DNA from: Candidatus Termititenax sp.
GTDB lineage: Bacteria > Margulisbacteria > Riflemargulisbacteria > GWF2-35-9 > DYQY01
Assembly: GCA_020719045.1 (NCBI GenBank)
Contig: DYQY01000018.1
Coordinates: forward strand, 1-28,422
Direction: 5' to 3'
Length of the DNA: 28,422 nt
In this document: one piece after another, positions 7,746 through 20,374 of the stretch
Numbering within the stretch: position 1 is the stretch's first letter
Layout of the letters: each line of letters begins with the position of its first letter
Made by a program: the position numbers and the translations under genes
The notes under the pieces: generated by a model
Databases searched by the model: none
Told to the model about the DNA's origin: nothing
The model's input: only the letters and a program-made list of their open reading frames with translations

Positions 7746-7786
7746 AAATACTATATATAGACAAACAATTCTAGTTGGTAGGGAAA

Positions 7787-9961
7787 ATGTATAAAAAAAT
7801 CTGTTCATTTACAAATAAAACCATATATATCAGTGAGCATTTAGAAAGAATTCTTGCTAAACATTCTGAGGCGCTTTCTCGTTTATCTGAAACCAGAAAC
7901 AAAAAAGAAGTCAGATATATATTCTTAGAATACTTTAATGCTCAAATCTCAGATGTCCCAAAAAACTCTAAAACACTACTGCTACTATTCCTCTATCATT
8001 CACTTAAATCTGTGCTTAACTGCTCTGATATCGTTATCTATCAAGCTGAAATGGATCAGATATTTGGCGAAGCCAATGACGAATATCTTTGGTTAAAGAC
8101 TCTTTTCGCAGACCCACACCATAGCTCAAGATTTGATGTTAAAACAATTTCATCTGAAGACAGTCCTTCTTGGCAAGTAGAGATTTTAGACGTATATTCC
8201 ATAGAAGGCACTGAAGAGTTTGAATTTGAAAAAATCATTACGCCAATCAAACTTGAAAATGGTGTACTATTTGCTGAAGCTACAGCTGTTAAAGACAGAA
8301 ATGGAAACATACTTTCAACAAAAAACATCGAGCTCTCTGGAAACTCAGGAAGCATTGCAGTAAGACTTCCAAAAAATTCTGAGAAAGCTCAAAGATTCAT
8401 GGAGCTGAATAACCCTGACAGCGAATACGCCATCAGAAAAGGTGATGACGGAAAACCTCTAGCAATCTTTTATCAAGAAACACCGGAAAATCTATCATCA
8501 TCAAAAAGAATGCTACACTCAGTGTATATAAAAACATTAATTGAATTATTAAAAGCAAGAAAGCAGGAAGCACTATTACCAGAAATATTAGGCTTTCTTT
8601 TTCATGAAGGAATAATGATTAATGTCCACAAAGAACAAGAATTCAATGGCAATGCTGGACTAAGGGTTATTGCTATGGCACACAACGTTAATCATTATAT
8701 AGAAATCATCATAGAGGCCCTACGTAGAGGCAAAAAATTATCTATAATAGGAAATTCTGTCTTAATTAACGGAAAACCAATTGAACTGCTTAACAGTGAT
8801 CCAGACCTACTAAAATCAAAAATTGATGTAGCCTTAACTATAATTAAAAACATACAAGACATAATAAAAAAACAAGATTTTGAAAAAATCAAAGAACAAG
8901 CAGAATCATTTCAACAGAACAAACAAAGAATTACAGAAAAAGAAAAAGAAAAATTATCATCTTCAGAGTTACAAGATACCCATGTAACATACTTTGCACC
9001 AATAAAGATAAATGATGTACTGTCCTTAATTAAAGAATCAAAAACTGCACAATTTCTAGAATACATAGCCACACATGATATGCTATTAACAACTACCGAA
9101 GGTCAATTTCTAAACTTCAAAAATCTAGGAAAAAGATCACAACTTGTAAACGAGTTCTTTAGTGGAAAGGTACCAGCTGACATACAAAAACTACTTCAAC
9201 CATCGCTCAAAGGTAAAGTTCTTTGCCAACCACACATCGCAAGTGACGGTATCACAATTCAAACCAAAGTAATAATAATTTTTGATAAACCTATACATAA
9301 AACACCAGAGGATTTATTTAACCCACTATTTATCCTAGATGAACTATCTTCCGAAAAAACTTTTGTAGACCCTAGATTTGAAGGATTTGCTGATTATGGT
9401 CCAGAAAGAGTTCCATTTTTTCATAAATCTAAAGATGGAACCACGCTTGAATGGATTATTGACTATGACATTTGGTCTTATCCTGATAGAAAGATTTTAT
9501 TCAGATTCTGCGAGGGTATTCATAATACTATTGAGTATGATGATAATGAAAAAATAAATAAAGCCACTGATATACCCAACATCTTGCTATCAAAAAACAG
9601 AGTTACTACTGCTAGAATTAATGAAAACTCAATTATGAAATTCTTTGAAAACATAACAAAAACTAGAAGATACAAAGTTGAATCTGAAAACGATGAATCA
9701 ATATTAACAAACTGTATAAAAAATAGAAATTTTAGAAGAACAGTACTCACATACTTTATTAGAAACCATATAACAGACTCAAATGCGATAAAAATTGAGC
9801 CAATGTTTGAAAGATTACTTTTTAGGTATCTAATCCTTGATATTGATGACGCGAAATTCGCACTAAGCCAAATAAAAGGTTATCATAATATTGAAAAGCT
9901 CAATAATAAACATAACCCTTTTTTCAGGTCAATAAAACTATATATACAAAACAACTCTTAG
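7787..9961 (+). CDS. Large hypothetical protein, about 724 aa
   Basis: Not recognised. The ATG at 7787 is taken as the start (weak GGTAGGG just upstream); a TTG at 7775 would add four residues. There is no signal peptide or membrane segment. Residues about 1-130 are helical. About 130-230 is beta-rich and acidic (LDVYSIEGTEEFEFEKIITPIKL region). A glycine-containing region NGNAGLRVIAMAHNVNHY lies near 290. A lysine/glutamine-rich probable coiled coil covers about 345-400, followed by another mixed region (PRFEGFADYGPERVPFF near 535) and a basic helical C-terminus. The stop overlaps that of the convergent tlpA-like gene by 3 bp. It is probably expressed with the 155-aa gene upstream. I see no nuclease, ATPase or transferase motif. 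Confidence 0.75.
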   Translation: MYKKICSFTNKTIYISEHLERILAKHSEALSRLSETRNKKEVRYIFLEYFNAQISDVPKNSKTLLLLFLYHSLKSVLNCSDIVIYQAEMDQIFGEANDEYLWLKTLFADPHHSSRFDVKTISSEDSPSWQVEILDVYSIEGTEEFEFEKIITPIKLENGVLFAEATAVKDRNGNILSTKNIELSGNSGSIAVRLPKNSEKAQRFMELNNPDSEYAIRKGDDGKPLAIFYQETPENLSSSKRMLHSVYIKTLIELLKARKQEALLPEILGFLFHEGIMINVHKEQEFNGNAGLRVIAMAHNVNHYIEIIIEALRRGKKLSIIGNSVLINGKPIELLNSDPDLLKSKIDVALTIIKNIQDIIKKQDFEKIKEQAESFQQNKQRITEKEKEKLSSSELQDTHVTYFAPIKINDVLSLIKESKTAQFLEYIATHDMLLTTTEGQFLNFKNLGKRSQLVNEFFSGKVPADIQKLLQPSLKGKVLCQPHIASDGITIQTKVIIIFDKPIHKTPEDLFNPLFILDELSSEKTFVDPRFEGFADYGPERVPFFHKSKDGTTLEWIIDYDIWSYPDRKILFRFCEGIHNTIEYDDNEKINKATDIPNILLSKNRVTTARINENSIMKFFENITKTRRYKVESENDESILTNCIKNRNFRRTVLTYFIRNHITDSNAIKIEPMFERLLFRYLILDIDDAKFALSQIKGYHNIEKLNNKHNPFFRSIKLYIQNNS

Positions 9962-11749: not shown

Positions 11750-12613
11750 TTATTCTATTAGCTCTCTAGGAATCATCACGATTGGAAAAACACTAATACT
11801 TGAGCTTACGACCTCAGTATTATTCTTTCTTGTATACTCTGGAGTAATCCGAAACTTAACTACACTTGTCCAGTCAGACAATGGCTTTGAACTAAGAAAA
11901 TCTGCTACGTCTACTAAGCTTGCAAATGGCCTTAATCCACTATCTGTTTCTAAATAATATGTATGTTTAAGCAACGCCCCTACCTGATCAGAATAAGATA
12001 ACTTTTCTCCATTTAGTCCCAATATTTCATGCCTACTCGAAGGTTGCTGCTGTTCATAGCTTGCGGCAATTGCTGACCTCTTTTCATAATCAAAATTAAT
12101 CAAATCAACACCAGAAGCACCAGTTCTAATATTTGACCTACCTATCACCCTAGGTCCTTCAACAAGCGGTCCAGCAGAAGCATCAGACAAAGACTCTTCC
12201 CTATTTAAAATAATTCTTATATGTTTATTTGTGTAATGCACTGATAGCTCTTGAGTAAATTCTTTTATCTTTCTATTTAACCCGTCTACTTCCTGACTCA
12301 ATTCATGCAAATCGCTTTCATCAAGACACCTTCCATCAAGAATTCCATCAACACTTTTATAACTTTCATAATCATTGATTATTTGCATAACATCTATCAA
12401 TCTATTATTTAACTTATTCATGATAAATTGAATTTCTGACATGGATAATCCGTCGTTTTGAAACAAAACACCCCTTAAACCTAAATACTTTTCAAGAGCA
12501 TCTATGCTCCAAGCCTTATAATCCATAAGCTTTTTATACTCAGAGTTTTTTTCAGCCCAGGTAAATAAATCCATTTGAACAGGACGCTTTATTGCTACTA
12601 CTTTTTTATTCAT
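11750..12613 (-). CDS. Hypothetical protein with central coiled coil, 287 aa
   Basis: Not recognised. AAGGAG lies 8 nt before the ATG. The basic N-terminus (MNKKVVAIKRPVQMDLFTW) is not a signal peptide. Residues about 55-130 look alpha-helical and coiled-coil forming (MNKLNNRLIDVMQIINDYES ... LSQEVDGLNRKIKEFTQEL). A low-complexity linker follows (about 135-195, rich in Ser/Gly/Gln), then a mixed C-terminal domain of about 90 residues. The architecture suggests a structural or scaffold protein, but nothing identifies its partner. It ends about 10 bp upstream of the arsR promoter, with no obvious terminator. Confidence 0.7.
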   Translation of the reverse strand: MNKKVVAIKRPVQMDLFTWAEKNSEYKKLMDYKAWSIDALEKYLGLRGVLFQNDGLSMSEIQFIMNKLNNRLIDVMQIINDYESYKSVDGILDGRCLDESDLHELSQEVDGLNRKIKEFTQELSVHYTNKHIRIILNREESLSDASAGPLVEGPRVIGRSNIRTGASGVDLINFDYEKRSAIAASYEQQQPSSRHEILGLNGEKLSYSDQVGALLKHTYYLETDSGLRPFASLVDVADFLSSKPLSDWTSVVKFRITPEYTRKNNTEVVSSSISVFPIVMIPRELIE

Positions 12614-12679: not shown

Positions 12680-13297
12680 CTAATTAAATTTAGAGGAGAG
12701 TTCTTGGATGGCTTGCTTTACTGCTTCGTTATCTTCATCAATAGCAAGAATTGTTCTAAACGTACTTAAGGCTGAGTCGAAATCACCTAGATAATATTGA
12801 CCTACTGCTTTGTTGTATAAAGCATTAATGTTTGCTGGTTCAGACACTAAAACCTTCTCGCAATACTCAATTGCCTTTGCATACTCTTCGTTTTCTACAG
12901 AAATATTTGCTAAATTAAATAACGCATCTTTATGAAACTCATTTAATTCTATAACAGTCAAGAACGCTTCTTCTGCCTTATCAAAACGCTTTTTCTCATA
13001 ATAATACAAACCTAACTGAAACCTAGCGCTAATATTATTGGAATTAATCTGTAGAGAATCCTGAATCTCTATCAAAACCAAATCCACATCACGTTGCTTA
13101 AAGTAATGTTCCTTAATGCCTTCTAACTTCTGCCTAACCAAAAAGTTTTTTCTTTTAAGTATCGCTTGCATAATTGGTTTACTTAGCTCAACGTCTGGTA
13201 TCCCAAACCAATGCAACTGTCTTCCACAGTATGGACAGAAGTTACGCCTAACCGCCATTTTCTCAGATACTAATTTCTCACAATAAGTACAATACAT
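12680..13297 (-). CDS. Zinc-ribbon and TPR protein
   Basis: 205 aa from the ATG at 13297, preceded by GAGGG at 5 nt; the longer frame to 13345 adds 16 residues without homology. The N-terminus MYCTYCEK plus NFCPYCGRQL makes two CxxC knuckles spaced about 15 residues apart (a zinc ribbon). TPR repeats fill about 75-195 (ARFQLGLYYYEKKRFDKAEEAF, ALFNLANISVENEEYAKAIEYC, ALYNKAVGQYYLGDFDSALSTF). It is a cytoplasmic protein-interaction adaptor; the partner is unknown. Confidence 0.8.
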   Translation of the reverse strand: MYCTYCEKLVSEKMAVRRNFCPYCGRQLHWFGIPDVELSKPIMQAILKRKNFLVRQKLEGIKEHYFKQRDVDLVLIEIQDSLQINSNNISARFQLGLYYYEKKRFDKAEEAFLTVIELNEFHKDALFNLANISVENEEYAKAIEYCEKVLVSEPANINALYNKAVGQYYLGDFDSALSTFRTILAIDEDNEAVKQAIQELSSKFN

Positions 13298-13351: not shown

Positions 13352-13380
13352 CCCTCTCCTAAATAATATTTAGGAGAGGG
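13352..13380. repeat. Perfect GC-rich palindrome
   Basis: The arms 13352-13364 (CCCTCTCCTAAAT) and 13368-13380 are exact reverse complements around a 3-base loop, AAT. It stands out in AT-rich DNA, and the GGAGAGGG motif appears again in the leader of the gene starting at 13297. It resembles REP-type intergenic repeats more than a terminator, since no T-run follows. The last codons of the broken nth gene's second frame run into it. Confidence 0.75.
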
Positions 13381-13803
13381 TAAGGACACTTACTCTTTAA
13401 AAAACAATCATCACATTTTGGATTAAGAGGTAAACAAATGTTTTGACCTAGCAGAACCAAATATTGATTGATACTTTTCCAGTACTATATGTGCAATCTG
13501 ATGTAACTGTTCTGCTTTCCGTTTATAAAAGCCACATGGATATAAAAGATTAGTGAGTTCAGGTGTTGAAATGTTTAATAGTTGTTTATAGTTTGCTATC
13601 TTTTCAAAAACTTTCTCCGATACCTTCCAAGTTGTTGCTTCTTTTGTTCTTAAACTAATTACAGCTGAGACTAATACTTTAAAAGCCTTTTCCTGTATAT
13701 TAGCTACATCTTTAAGTTCATGTGAAATATATAATCTTGGCGCATCCTTAAGCTTCACCTCTATTTCCTGATAAATTAGTGGTAAATCACTGTAACTTAT
13801 CAT
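13359..13803 (-). pseudogene. nth: Endonuclease III, internally deleted and frameshifted
   Basis: From the ATG at 13803 the frame matches the N-terminal quarter to half of endonuclease III (AFKVLVSAVISLRTKEATTWKV, LYPCGFYKRKAEQLHQIA), then runs into unrelated residues and stops at 13423. In another frame, bases 13472-13386 encode INQYLVLLGQNIC and then C-x6-C-x2-C-x5-C (cysteine codons at 13436, 13415, 13406 and 13388), the family's C-terminal [4Fe-4S] loop. Against E. coli Nth about 74 residues are missing between the parts, including the helix-hairpin-helix, the catalytic lysine and the catalytic aspartate. It therefore cannot be an active glycosylase/AP lyase. The start lies inside the PLD gene (17-bp overlap), the usual layout of an operon. 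Confidence 0.9.
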
Positions 13804-14284
13804 AGGTAACAGCTTCCTTCCAAAGCTTACTAAACTCATCACTATATTTAGCAATAAGCTCTTTCTCCTCAAGTATCAAACAGTTCTCATAATTATACTT
13901 TTCAGCATTTGCGCTCCAATTATATGACCCTGTAACTAAATACTTGTTATTAATTAACATAAACTTATGATGCATCATTCCCCTAGTGCTTGAAGTTGGC
14001 AAATACTTAACTTGAATGTTTGCCTGTAGCAACTTCAGAACGCTATAACTGCCCTCTCCCTGACCTCTATCAGCTATTAACCTAATCTGTCTTCCTTTTT
14101 TGTGCTCTGCAAGCAAAGCTAATGCTAACTCCTTAGAAGTGAAACTATAAATAGCAATATCTATGTTACCGTTTGTTGTTTGAATAAGCTTAATAAGTTG
14201 TTCCCTAGTCCCACCATCAGGAGAAAAAAACACTTGTGAGGCAAAAATAAAAGACGTTGAAAGAATAAGTAATAACAATCTCAT
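13787..14284 (-). CDS. Secreted PLD-superfamily (Nuc-type) nuclease
   Basis: 165 aa with one HKD motif, the size of single-domain Nuc-like endonucleases that dimerise to form the active site. The ATG at 14284 begins a clear signal peptide (MRLLLLILSTSFIFASQ); the upstream TTG frame is rejected. NGNIDIAIYSFTSKELALAL at about 39-58 is the conserved N-terminal block. The motif MHHKFMLINNKYLVTGSYNWS carries H105 and K107, but the usual aspartate is Asn112. The catalytic His/Lys and GSYNWS are kept, so activity is plausible. It would act in the periplasm or outside the cell. No good Shine-Dalgarno is seen. Confidence 0.88.
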   Translation of the reverse strand: MRLLLLILSTSFIFASQVFFSPDGGTREQLIKLIQTTNGNIDIAIYSFTSKELALALLAEHKKGRQIRLIADRGQGEGSYSVLKLLQANIQVKYLPTSSTRGMMHHKFMLINNKYLVTGSYNWSANAEKYNYENCLILEEKELIAKYSDEFSKLWKEAVTYDKLQ

Positions 14285-17680: not shown

Positions 17681-20374
17681 CTATGAAACAGAAAAGGTTA
17701 TCTCTCCCTGAGAGGAAAGCTTCAGGCTGACCGTTTGGTCAAACTTTATTTCTTTTTTAAGTAATCTTTGCGCTAATGGGTCCTCAATATTCTTCTCAAT
17801 AATTCTGCTGAGTGAACGAGCACCAAACTCATCGTACTGGGCATCAGCTATCAGTTTTTCTTTTACTGATTTTGATATTTTGATAACAATACCCTTTTCC
17901 TCAAGCCTACTAACTATATTCTTGGTAAGAAGCTCAAAAATCTTTAACATTGAGTCAAACCCAAGCGGCTTAAACACAACAACACCATTAATCCTGTTAA
18001 TAAACTCAACCTTAAAATTCTTCTTAATCTCGCTCTGAACATTTGACTTAAGTGTCTCATAATCACTTACTGAGCCACCTTTATTAAAGCCATATGCCTT
18101 TACTTGATCTGAACCCATATTGGTAGTCATTATTATTGTTGTATTACGAAAATCAATCTTCCTCCCCTGGCTATCTGTAACAAAACCGTTATCAAGTATT
18201 TGTAATAAGATATTAAATATCTCTGGGTGTGCCTTTTCGATTTCATCAAACAGTATAATACTGTAGGCATTACGCCTTACTTGAGCTGTAAGCTGTCCAG
18301 CTTCGTCATACCCAACATAACCAGGAGGCGCGCCAATTAGCTTTGAAATATTAAACTTCTCCATATATTCACTCATATCGTATCTGAGTAGTTTATCCTT
18401 ATCGCCCATCAAATACTCAGTAAGTACCTTTGCAAGCTCGGTCTTACCAACACCAGTTGGACCTGCGAAAATAAAAGAGCCTATTGGTCTATCAGGATTC
18501 TTTAACCCTGACCTTGCTCGTTTTAAAACTCTGGAAATCTCTTCTATAGCCTCTTCTTGACCAATGATATTCTTCTTAAGCTCTTCTTCCATTGTTGCAT
18601 ACTTATCTAACTCGTCTTCCTGCAAAGAATTCAAAGGTATTTTAGTCCAGTCAGATACTACATTAGAAATATCTTCTCGCTCAATCCTAACAACTTTACT
18701 TCCTTTTTTTGCCATCCACTTTTCTTTTTCCTCTGAAATCCAAGCTTCTAAACGCTCTATACTATCTCTATACTCAGCAGCCTTTTCATACTCTTGATTC
18801 TTTACCGCTGCTTTCTCATCTTTTTTAATTAAAACTAGTTCCTTTTGAACTCGTTTAATATGTTCAGGCATGGAAATAGAGTTAAGCCTAACCATAGCAG
18901 CTGCCTCATCAATAATATCTATTGCCTTATCTGGTAAGAACCTATCTGTAATATATCTAGCTGACATGTCAACCGCATACTCAATAACATCCTCATCAAT
19001 ATCAACTCTATGAAATGCTTCATATTTATCTCTAAGACCTTTAAGGATAGAAACGGTTTCAGCCTTACTTGGCTCCATAACGTCTATCTTCTGAAAACGC
19101 CTTTCAAGCGCAGCATCTTTTTCAACATATTTTCTATATTCATCAATTGTCGTAGCACCAATACACTGAATCTCTCCTCTTGCTAAGGCTGGCTTTAAAA
19201 TATTAGCCGCGTCCAGCGAATTTTCACCTACGGCGCCAGCTCCAATAATGGTATGAAGCTCATCAATAAACAGTATGATATTTGAGTCTTTCCTAGTTGC
19301 TTCCTCCAATAAACGCTTAAGTCTATCTTCAAAGTCACCTCTAAATCTTGTACCAGCGATTACAGATGATAACTGCAACTCTATAACTTTCTTTCCTATT
19401 AAATTCTCTGGGACTTCTTCATTCACAATCTCTTGCGCTAATCCTTCTACTATAGCTGTTTTACCAACCCCGGGGTCACCAATAAGTACTGGGTTATTTT
19501 TGGTTCTTCTGGAAAGAATTCTAATTATTCTTTTTATCTCGTTTTCCCTTCCAATTACTGGGTCTAAACGATTCTCTTGAGCTAATTTTGTTAAATCCCT
19601 ACCGAACTGTTCAAAGATATCAGTACCCTTCTGTTCGTTTTTCTTTGATTCAGCTTCCTGTCCACTAAAAAAGTTATTAAAGAAACTATTAATATCTTCG
19701 TCTTTTCTACTCTCTTTTTTATCAGGCATTTCTTTTTGAATAAACTGCAAGAAAGTATTGATAGAGACACCTCTTCTTGAAAGGTAAATAAAAGCTATTC
19801 CTTCTGCTTCACGCAATAAGCCAATTAGCAGATGCTCTGGACCAACATAAGGACTAAGCATTTCCTTGGCTGCATTATAAGAAAGCTCAACAACTTTCTT
19901 TGCTCTTGGACTCAGCTTAACACCCTCTTCTAGTCCCTCTGAAAGCTGTCCCTTTCCCATTGCATTCTCAACTTCTAAAATAAATCCATCAACATCAATT
20001 TTCTCTGATTCTAAATACTTTGTTACGATTCCCTTTTCTTTTAATAAACCAAGCAACATATGACCTGTATCTATAAGCCCATGCTCCAAACGTTTGCATT
20101 CTTCTTGTGCAATGTACATAGCCTTATTAGCATGCTCACTAAACATACCATATACCTTATCAAAAGAAGGCTGACTAAACTGCTTGAGTAGTGAATCTAA
20201 AAAAGGTGGCAAGTTCTGTTGTTTTGCTAATGAATCCAGAAATGGTTTAGGGAACAACATCTGATTCTTTTCCTGAGCGCATACCTGACAAATGTGTAGT
20301 GTTTTATTAACACCATTAATGTTAGTTTGAAGTGTTATAGTAGCGTTTCGTTTATTGCATATTTGGCATATCAT
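17681..20374 (-). CDS. clpC: ClpC/ClpE-type AAA+ unfoldase with N-terminal zinc finger
   Basis: 897 aa. Order of domains: a CxxC...CxxC zinc finger (C3, C6, C29, C32) as in ClpE; double Clp_N repeat (about 73-215) as in ClpC; AAA1 with Walker A GDPGVGKT (299-306) and Walker B around 367-372; a UVR-type helical middle segment (about 513-548, EYEKAAEYRDSIERLE); AAA2 with GPTGVGKT (638-645); and a YGF tripeptide at 761-763 in the loop that docks ClpP. It should unfold substrates for ClpP, which is not in the window. Having both the zinc finger and Clp_N is a hybrid of the Bacillus ClpC and ClpE layouts. No adjacent mcsA/mcsB/ctsR is present. It starts 7 bp after pdxJ with no Shine-Dalgarno and probably has its own promoter. 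Confidence 0.94.
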   Translation of the reverse strand: MICQICNKRNATITLQTNINGVNKTLHICQVCAQEKNQMLFPKPFLDSLAKQQNLPPFLDSLLKQFSQPSFDKVYGMFSEHANKAMYIAQEECKRLEHGLIDTGHMLLGLLKEKGIVTKYLESEKIDVDGFILEVENAMGKGQLSEGLEEGVKLSPRAKKVVELSYNAAKEMLSPYVGPEHLLIGLLREAEGIAFIYLSRRGVSINTFLQFIQKEMPDKKESRKDEDINSFFNNFFSGQEAESKKNEQKGTDIFEQFGRDLTKLAQENRLDPVIGRENEIKRIIRILSRRTKNNPVLIGDPGVGKTAIVEGLAQEIVNEEVPENLIGKKVIELQLSSVIAGTRFRGDFEDRLKRLLEEATRKDSNIILFIDELHTIIGAGAVGENSLDAANILKPALARGEIQCIGATTIDEYRKYVEKDAALERRFQKIDVMEPSKAETVSILKGLRDKYEAFHRVDIDEDVIEYAVDMSARYITDRFLPDKAIDIIDEAAAMVRLNSISMPEHIKRVQKELVLIKKDEKAAVKNQEYEKAAEYRDSIERLEAWISEEKEKWMAKKGSKVVRIEREDISNVVSDWTKIPLNSLQEDELDKYATMEEELKKNIIGQEEAIEEISRVLKRARSGLKNPDRPIGSFIFAGPTGVGKTELAKVLTEYLMGDKDKLLRYDMSEYMEKFNISKLIGAPPGYVGYDEAGQLTAQVRRNAYSIILFDEIEKAHPEIFNILLQILDNGFVTDSQGRKIDFRNTTIIMTTNMGSDQVKAYGFNKGGSVSDYETLKSNVQSEIKKNFKVEFINRINGVVVFKPLGFDSMLKIFELLTKNIVSRLEEKGIVIKISKSVKEKLIADAQYDEFGARSLSRIIEKNIEDPLAQRLLKKEIKFDQTVSLKLSSQGEITFSVS

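Follow-up and report, generated by a model that had tools for sequence, protein, structure and literature searches.

Two described systems stand closest to the locus that we analyzed. The first is endonuclease III (Nth), in whose functional form we looked for three features: the helix-hairpin-helix (HhH) motif LPGVGRKxAN with its catalytic lysine, the motif VDxHVHR with the catalytic aspartate, and an iron-sulphur loop in which four cysteines are spaced C-x6-C-x2-C-x5-C. The second is the class of young bacterial pseudogenes produced by deletion between short direct repeats, in which one out-of-frame deletion lies between intact flanks and functional syntenic orthologues are present in relatives. 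Gene loss through small deletion is common; a literature search returned nothing specific to the case described here.

The window, by which we mean the whole stretch of 28,422 nucleotides that was analyzed, comes from a 1.75-Mb draft genome of Candidatus Termititenax sp. (31 contigs, 99% complete) that is the sole genome for its species. The only other genome of the genus in our comparison set is designated G001.

Two remnants of nth in different reading frames

On the minus strand, positions 13803-13381 correspond to nth, with the first approximately 111 codons and the last approximately 29 codons in different frames. The N-terminal remnant (codons 1-111; 13471..13803, minus strand) is an open frame that translates as MISYSDLPLIYQ...IVLEKYQS, departs from the Nth family at about 13470, and then runs through approximately 15 residues unrelated to Nth to a stop at about 13423. 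It matches the HhH-GPD profile PF00730 (E=1.1e-12, profile positions 1-67 of 108) and the nth model TIGR01083 (positions 25-100 of 192), and it is 73% identical in amino acid sequence to the Nth of G001. The C-terminal remnant (13381..13472, minus strand), INQYLVLLGQNIC, holds the [4Fe-4S] loop and was recognized from its translation and from the sister alignment. In the other frame, starting at 13472, it reads INQYLVLLGQNICLPLNPKCDDCFLKSKCPYPLLNII and carries the C-terminal end of Nth, four cysteines included (INQYLVLLGQNICLPLNPKCDDCFLKSKCP); the alignment to the end of the G001 protein is gap-free, with 83% identity over 29 codons. The Nth identity of both remnants is far beyond chance.

The original prediction had assigned the two parts of Nth to different frames, and the minus-strand translation, the PF00730 and TIGR01083 matches and the sister alignment bear this out. 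It had also given the cysteine spacing as C-x6-C-x2-C-x5-C, which is what the translation contains. The iron-sulphur loop is therefore present, but in a frame that differs from that of the N-terminus. The HhH motif with the catalytic lysine, present in P0001 and in the order relatives, is absent from the window and was not found in the whole of this genome, and the aspartate motif is missing from the remnants.

An intact gene occupies the same locus in G001, where a 220-residue Nth (TIGR01083, E=3.4e-48) has the PLD-like nuclease gene on one side and the zinc-ribbon-like/TPR gene on the other, and the DNA on either side of nth is collinear between the two genomes at approximately 67-85% identity. 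In another family of the order, five genomes (G002-G006) likewise carry an intact nth beside the same PLD gene, a neighbor that is thus common to all six intact relatives (6/6). Because the syntenic gene is intact in G001 and in these five genomes, we place the deletion within an ancestrally intact nth. The locus combines a disabling lesion with an intact syntenic orthologue in close relatives, the combination that marks a pseudogene, and we consider it very probable that nth is a young pseudogene, intact in the ancestor and broken in this lineage by one out-of-frame deletion of approximately 224 bp.

In the window itself, the upstream neighbor, a PLD-like (NucT-like) nuclease gene assigned by PF13091 (E=3.7e-29) and by synteny, lies at 13787..14284 on the minus strand and overlaps the start of nth. 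Downstream, at 12680..13297 on the same strand, is a gene for a zinc-ribbon-like and TPR protein, in the same order as in G001. The reading frames of the flanking genes common to the window and G001 are open. At the end of the C-terminal remnant we found a perfect 14-bp inverted repeat, CCCTCTCCTAAATA / TATTTAGGAGAGGG (13352..13380), which is predicted to form a strong RNA hairpin (z -4.4) and has no counterpart at the corresponding place in G001. It is possibly a terminator-like hairpin; a mobile repeat was also considered and rejected, as the element occurs in a single copy in the genome.

Three other genes of the window drew our attention. At 17681-20374, a ClpC-type ATPase begins with approximately 41 residues (MICQICNKRNATITLQ...CQVCAQEK) that match the McsA N-terminus (NF053706, 50 bits, below the model's curated whole-protein cut-off), and a single reading frame appears to join a McsA-type zinc finger to ClpC. 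A 728-aa protein (7775-9961) corresponds to a protein at the equivalent position in G001 and has no Pfam match, and a 287-aa protein (11750-12613), also lacking a Pfam match, has a protein of similar size at the same place in G001.

The 224-bp gap and its junction

By alignment and length count, the interval between the start codon and the last cysteine codon is 224 bp shorter in the window than in G001, and since 224 is 3x74+2, and no multiple of three, the frame changes across the gap. The gap corresponds to sister residues ~112-185 and contains LPGVGRKVANL, with the HhH and Lys131 of the sister numbering, and GICVDIHVHR, with Asp149. Both motifs are conserved across the aligned relatives, and we take their lysine and aspartate to be the catalytic residues by homology to E. 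coli Nth. An internal deletion of about 74 residues (about 220 bp), covering the HhH, the catalytic lysine and the catalytic aspartate, had been proposed from the DNA alone, and alignment to the full-length G001 gene recovered it in each of these respects as one 224-bp gap.

Alignments and the length count against G001 place the junction within AAGTATCAATCAATATT (~13466..13476, minus strand), where the sequence reads AAGTATCAATCAATATTTGG. The earlier placement was near 13465-13473; the position is resolved only to a few bases (about 13466-13476). G001 has diverged at both ends of the gap (left AAGCATCAGGG, right ACGATTAACCAATATT), which leaves only an approximate length for any repeat there; we nevertheless infer, reasonably in our view, an ATCA/ATCAA-type match at both ends. 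It is plausible, along the lines of the slippage idea in the original prediction, that short direct repeats of this type gave rise, through replication slippage or end-joining, to a single deletion of approximately 224 bp in a gene intact in the ancestor of the genus. The deletion took out codons ~112-185, including the helix-hairpin-helix, Lys131 and Asp149, and the only product left to the gene would be one of 126 residues, predicted to be catalytically dead.

Two other explanations of the junction were considered and rejected: an intein or splice event, as the window carries no insertion and is instead shorter than the relatives, and a programmed frameshift that would rescue the gene, as no frame encodes the catalytic residues.

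Age of the loss

None of the order-invariant Nth residues is changed in either remnant (0/24 in the N-terminal part and 0/16 in the C-terminal part, 0/40 in total), and neither remnant contains a further stop or frameshift. Departures from the family in the N-terminal part number none that are specific to this genome versus three specific to G001, and in the C-terminal part one in this lineage versus none in G001; this lineage shows no excess of them and no acceleration. Pairwise dN for the N-terminal part is 0.20, a value that falls among those of the other compared genes (0.07-0.29); synonymous sites were near saturation, and so YN00 estimates were not available for most genes. A simple simulation of neutral evolution, with substitution rates set equal, gave the N-terminal part a probability of staying free of stops of 0.83 at 0.01, 0.34 at 0.05 and 0.14 at 0.1 substitutions per site. 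Because the invariant residues are unchanged and no extra stop or frameshift has accumulated, the loss is probably recent or, less likely, an artefact; the deletion, if real, would be young compared with the divergence from G001.

The artefact in question would be an assembly error or a strain mixture, in which nth is intact in the true or majority genome and the contig represents an erroneous or minority path. Remnants free of decay are what a gene that is really intact would show, and the assembly is a draft and the only one for its species. The junction nevertheless speaks otherwise: the stretch of 76 bases around it occurs once in the assembly, and the other matches in the genome are partial, at 17-31 bases. 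No contig contains the missing segment, though the same query finds the G001 gene with E=4e-49, and the shared flanking genes are open. A repeat of some 8 bases, as at the junction, is not long enough to lead an assembler astray and lies far below the assembly k-mer. Given the unique flanks, the short repeat and the absence of the missing piece from the assembly, we judge an assembly error or strain mixture to be quite unlikely.

Conservation of the two open frames might also suggest that both fragments are retained for a function, for example as a truncated helical protein or as a fusion to the iron-sulphur loop by frameshift. This we regard as highly improbable: the catalytic lysine, the aspartate and the HhH are gone in whatever frame, the N-terminal frame ends in its out-of-family tail, and recency explains the conservation equally well.

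Repair genes elsewhere in the genome

The original prediction had left the repair of oxidized pyrimidines to other enzymes or to a second nth. One intact Fpg/MutM, above the curated cut-off, remains, and the search of the genome detected neither a second nth nor mutY nor any further HhH-GPD (PF00730) gene. One Xth and one PF01261 match are also present. Oxidized pyrimidines may consequently be repaired less well, or their repair may fall to Fpg, nucleotide excision repair or other routes. Neither genome of the genus yielded a MutY-like HhH-GPD protein, though fpg/mutM is present.

A single-protein scan of named genomes found no close relatives, and a profile scan matched named relatives in Candidatus Margulisbacteria and Marinamargulisbacteria, among which it places the order. 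Because Nth was undetected in 15 of the 55 genomes searched in the phylum, near-complete ones (98-99%) included, by counts that come from the search alone, loss of nth is likely to be recurrent in the phylum. A more tentative reading, which we think somewhat doubtful, is that base excision repair is shrinking stepwise, with mutY already undetected in the genus, nth just lost, and Fpg alone among the oxidized-base glycosylases searched for. If true, this shrinkage would be a natural experiment in mutation-spectrum change. The case itself is of modest value in that it offers a well-placed related pair, one member with nth and one without it, mutY being undetected in both; if the loss is confirmed, the effect on mutation spectra could be measured there.

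Comparison with known systems

Most likely, the broken nth here is a recent pseudogene of an ordinary kind, made by an ordinary mechanism. The locus resembles endonuclease III in that both remnants align to the sister gene, the N-terminal part aligns to the family, and the four iron-sulphur cysteines are kept; it differs in that 224 bp with the HhH, the lysine and the aspartate are gone and the two ends lie in different frames. With young bacterial pseudogenes that result from deletion between short direct repeats it shares the single out-of-frame deletion, the intact flanks and the functional syntenic orthologues, and nothing sets it apart from them, the repeat itself being a plausible feature here.
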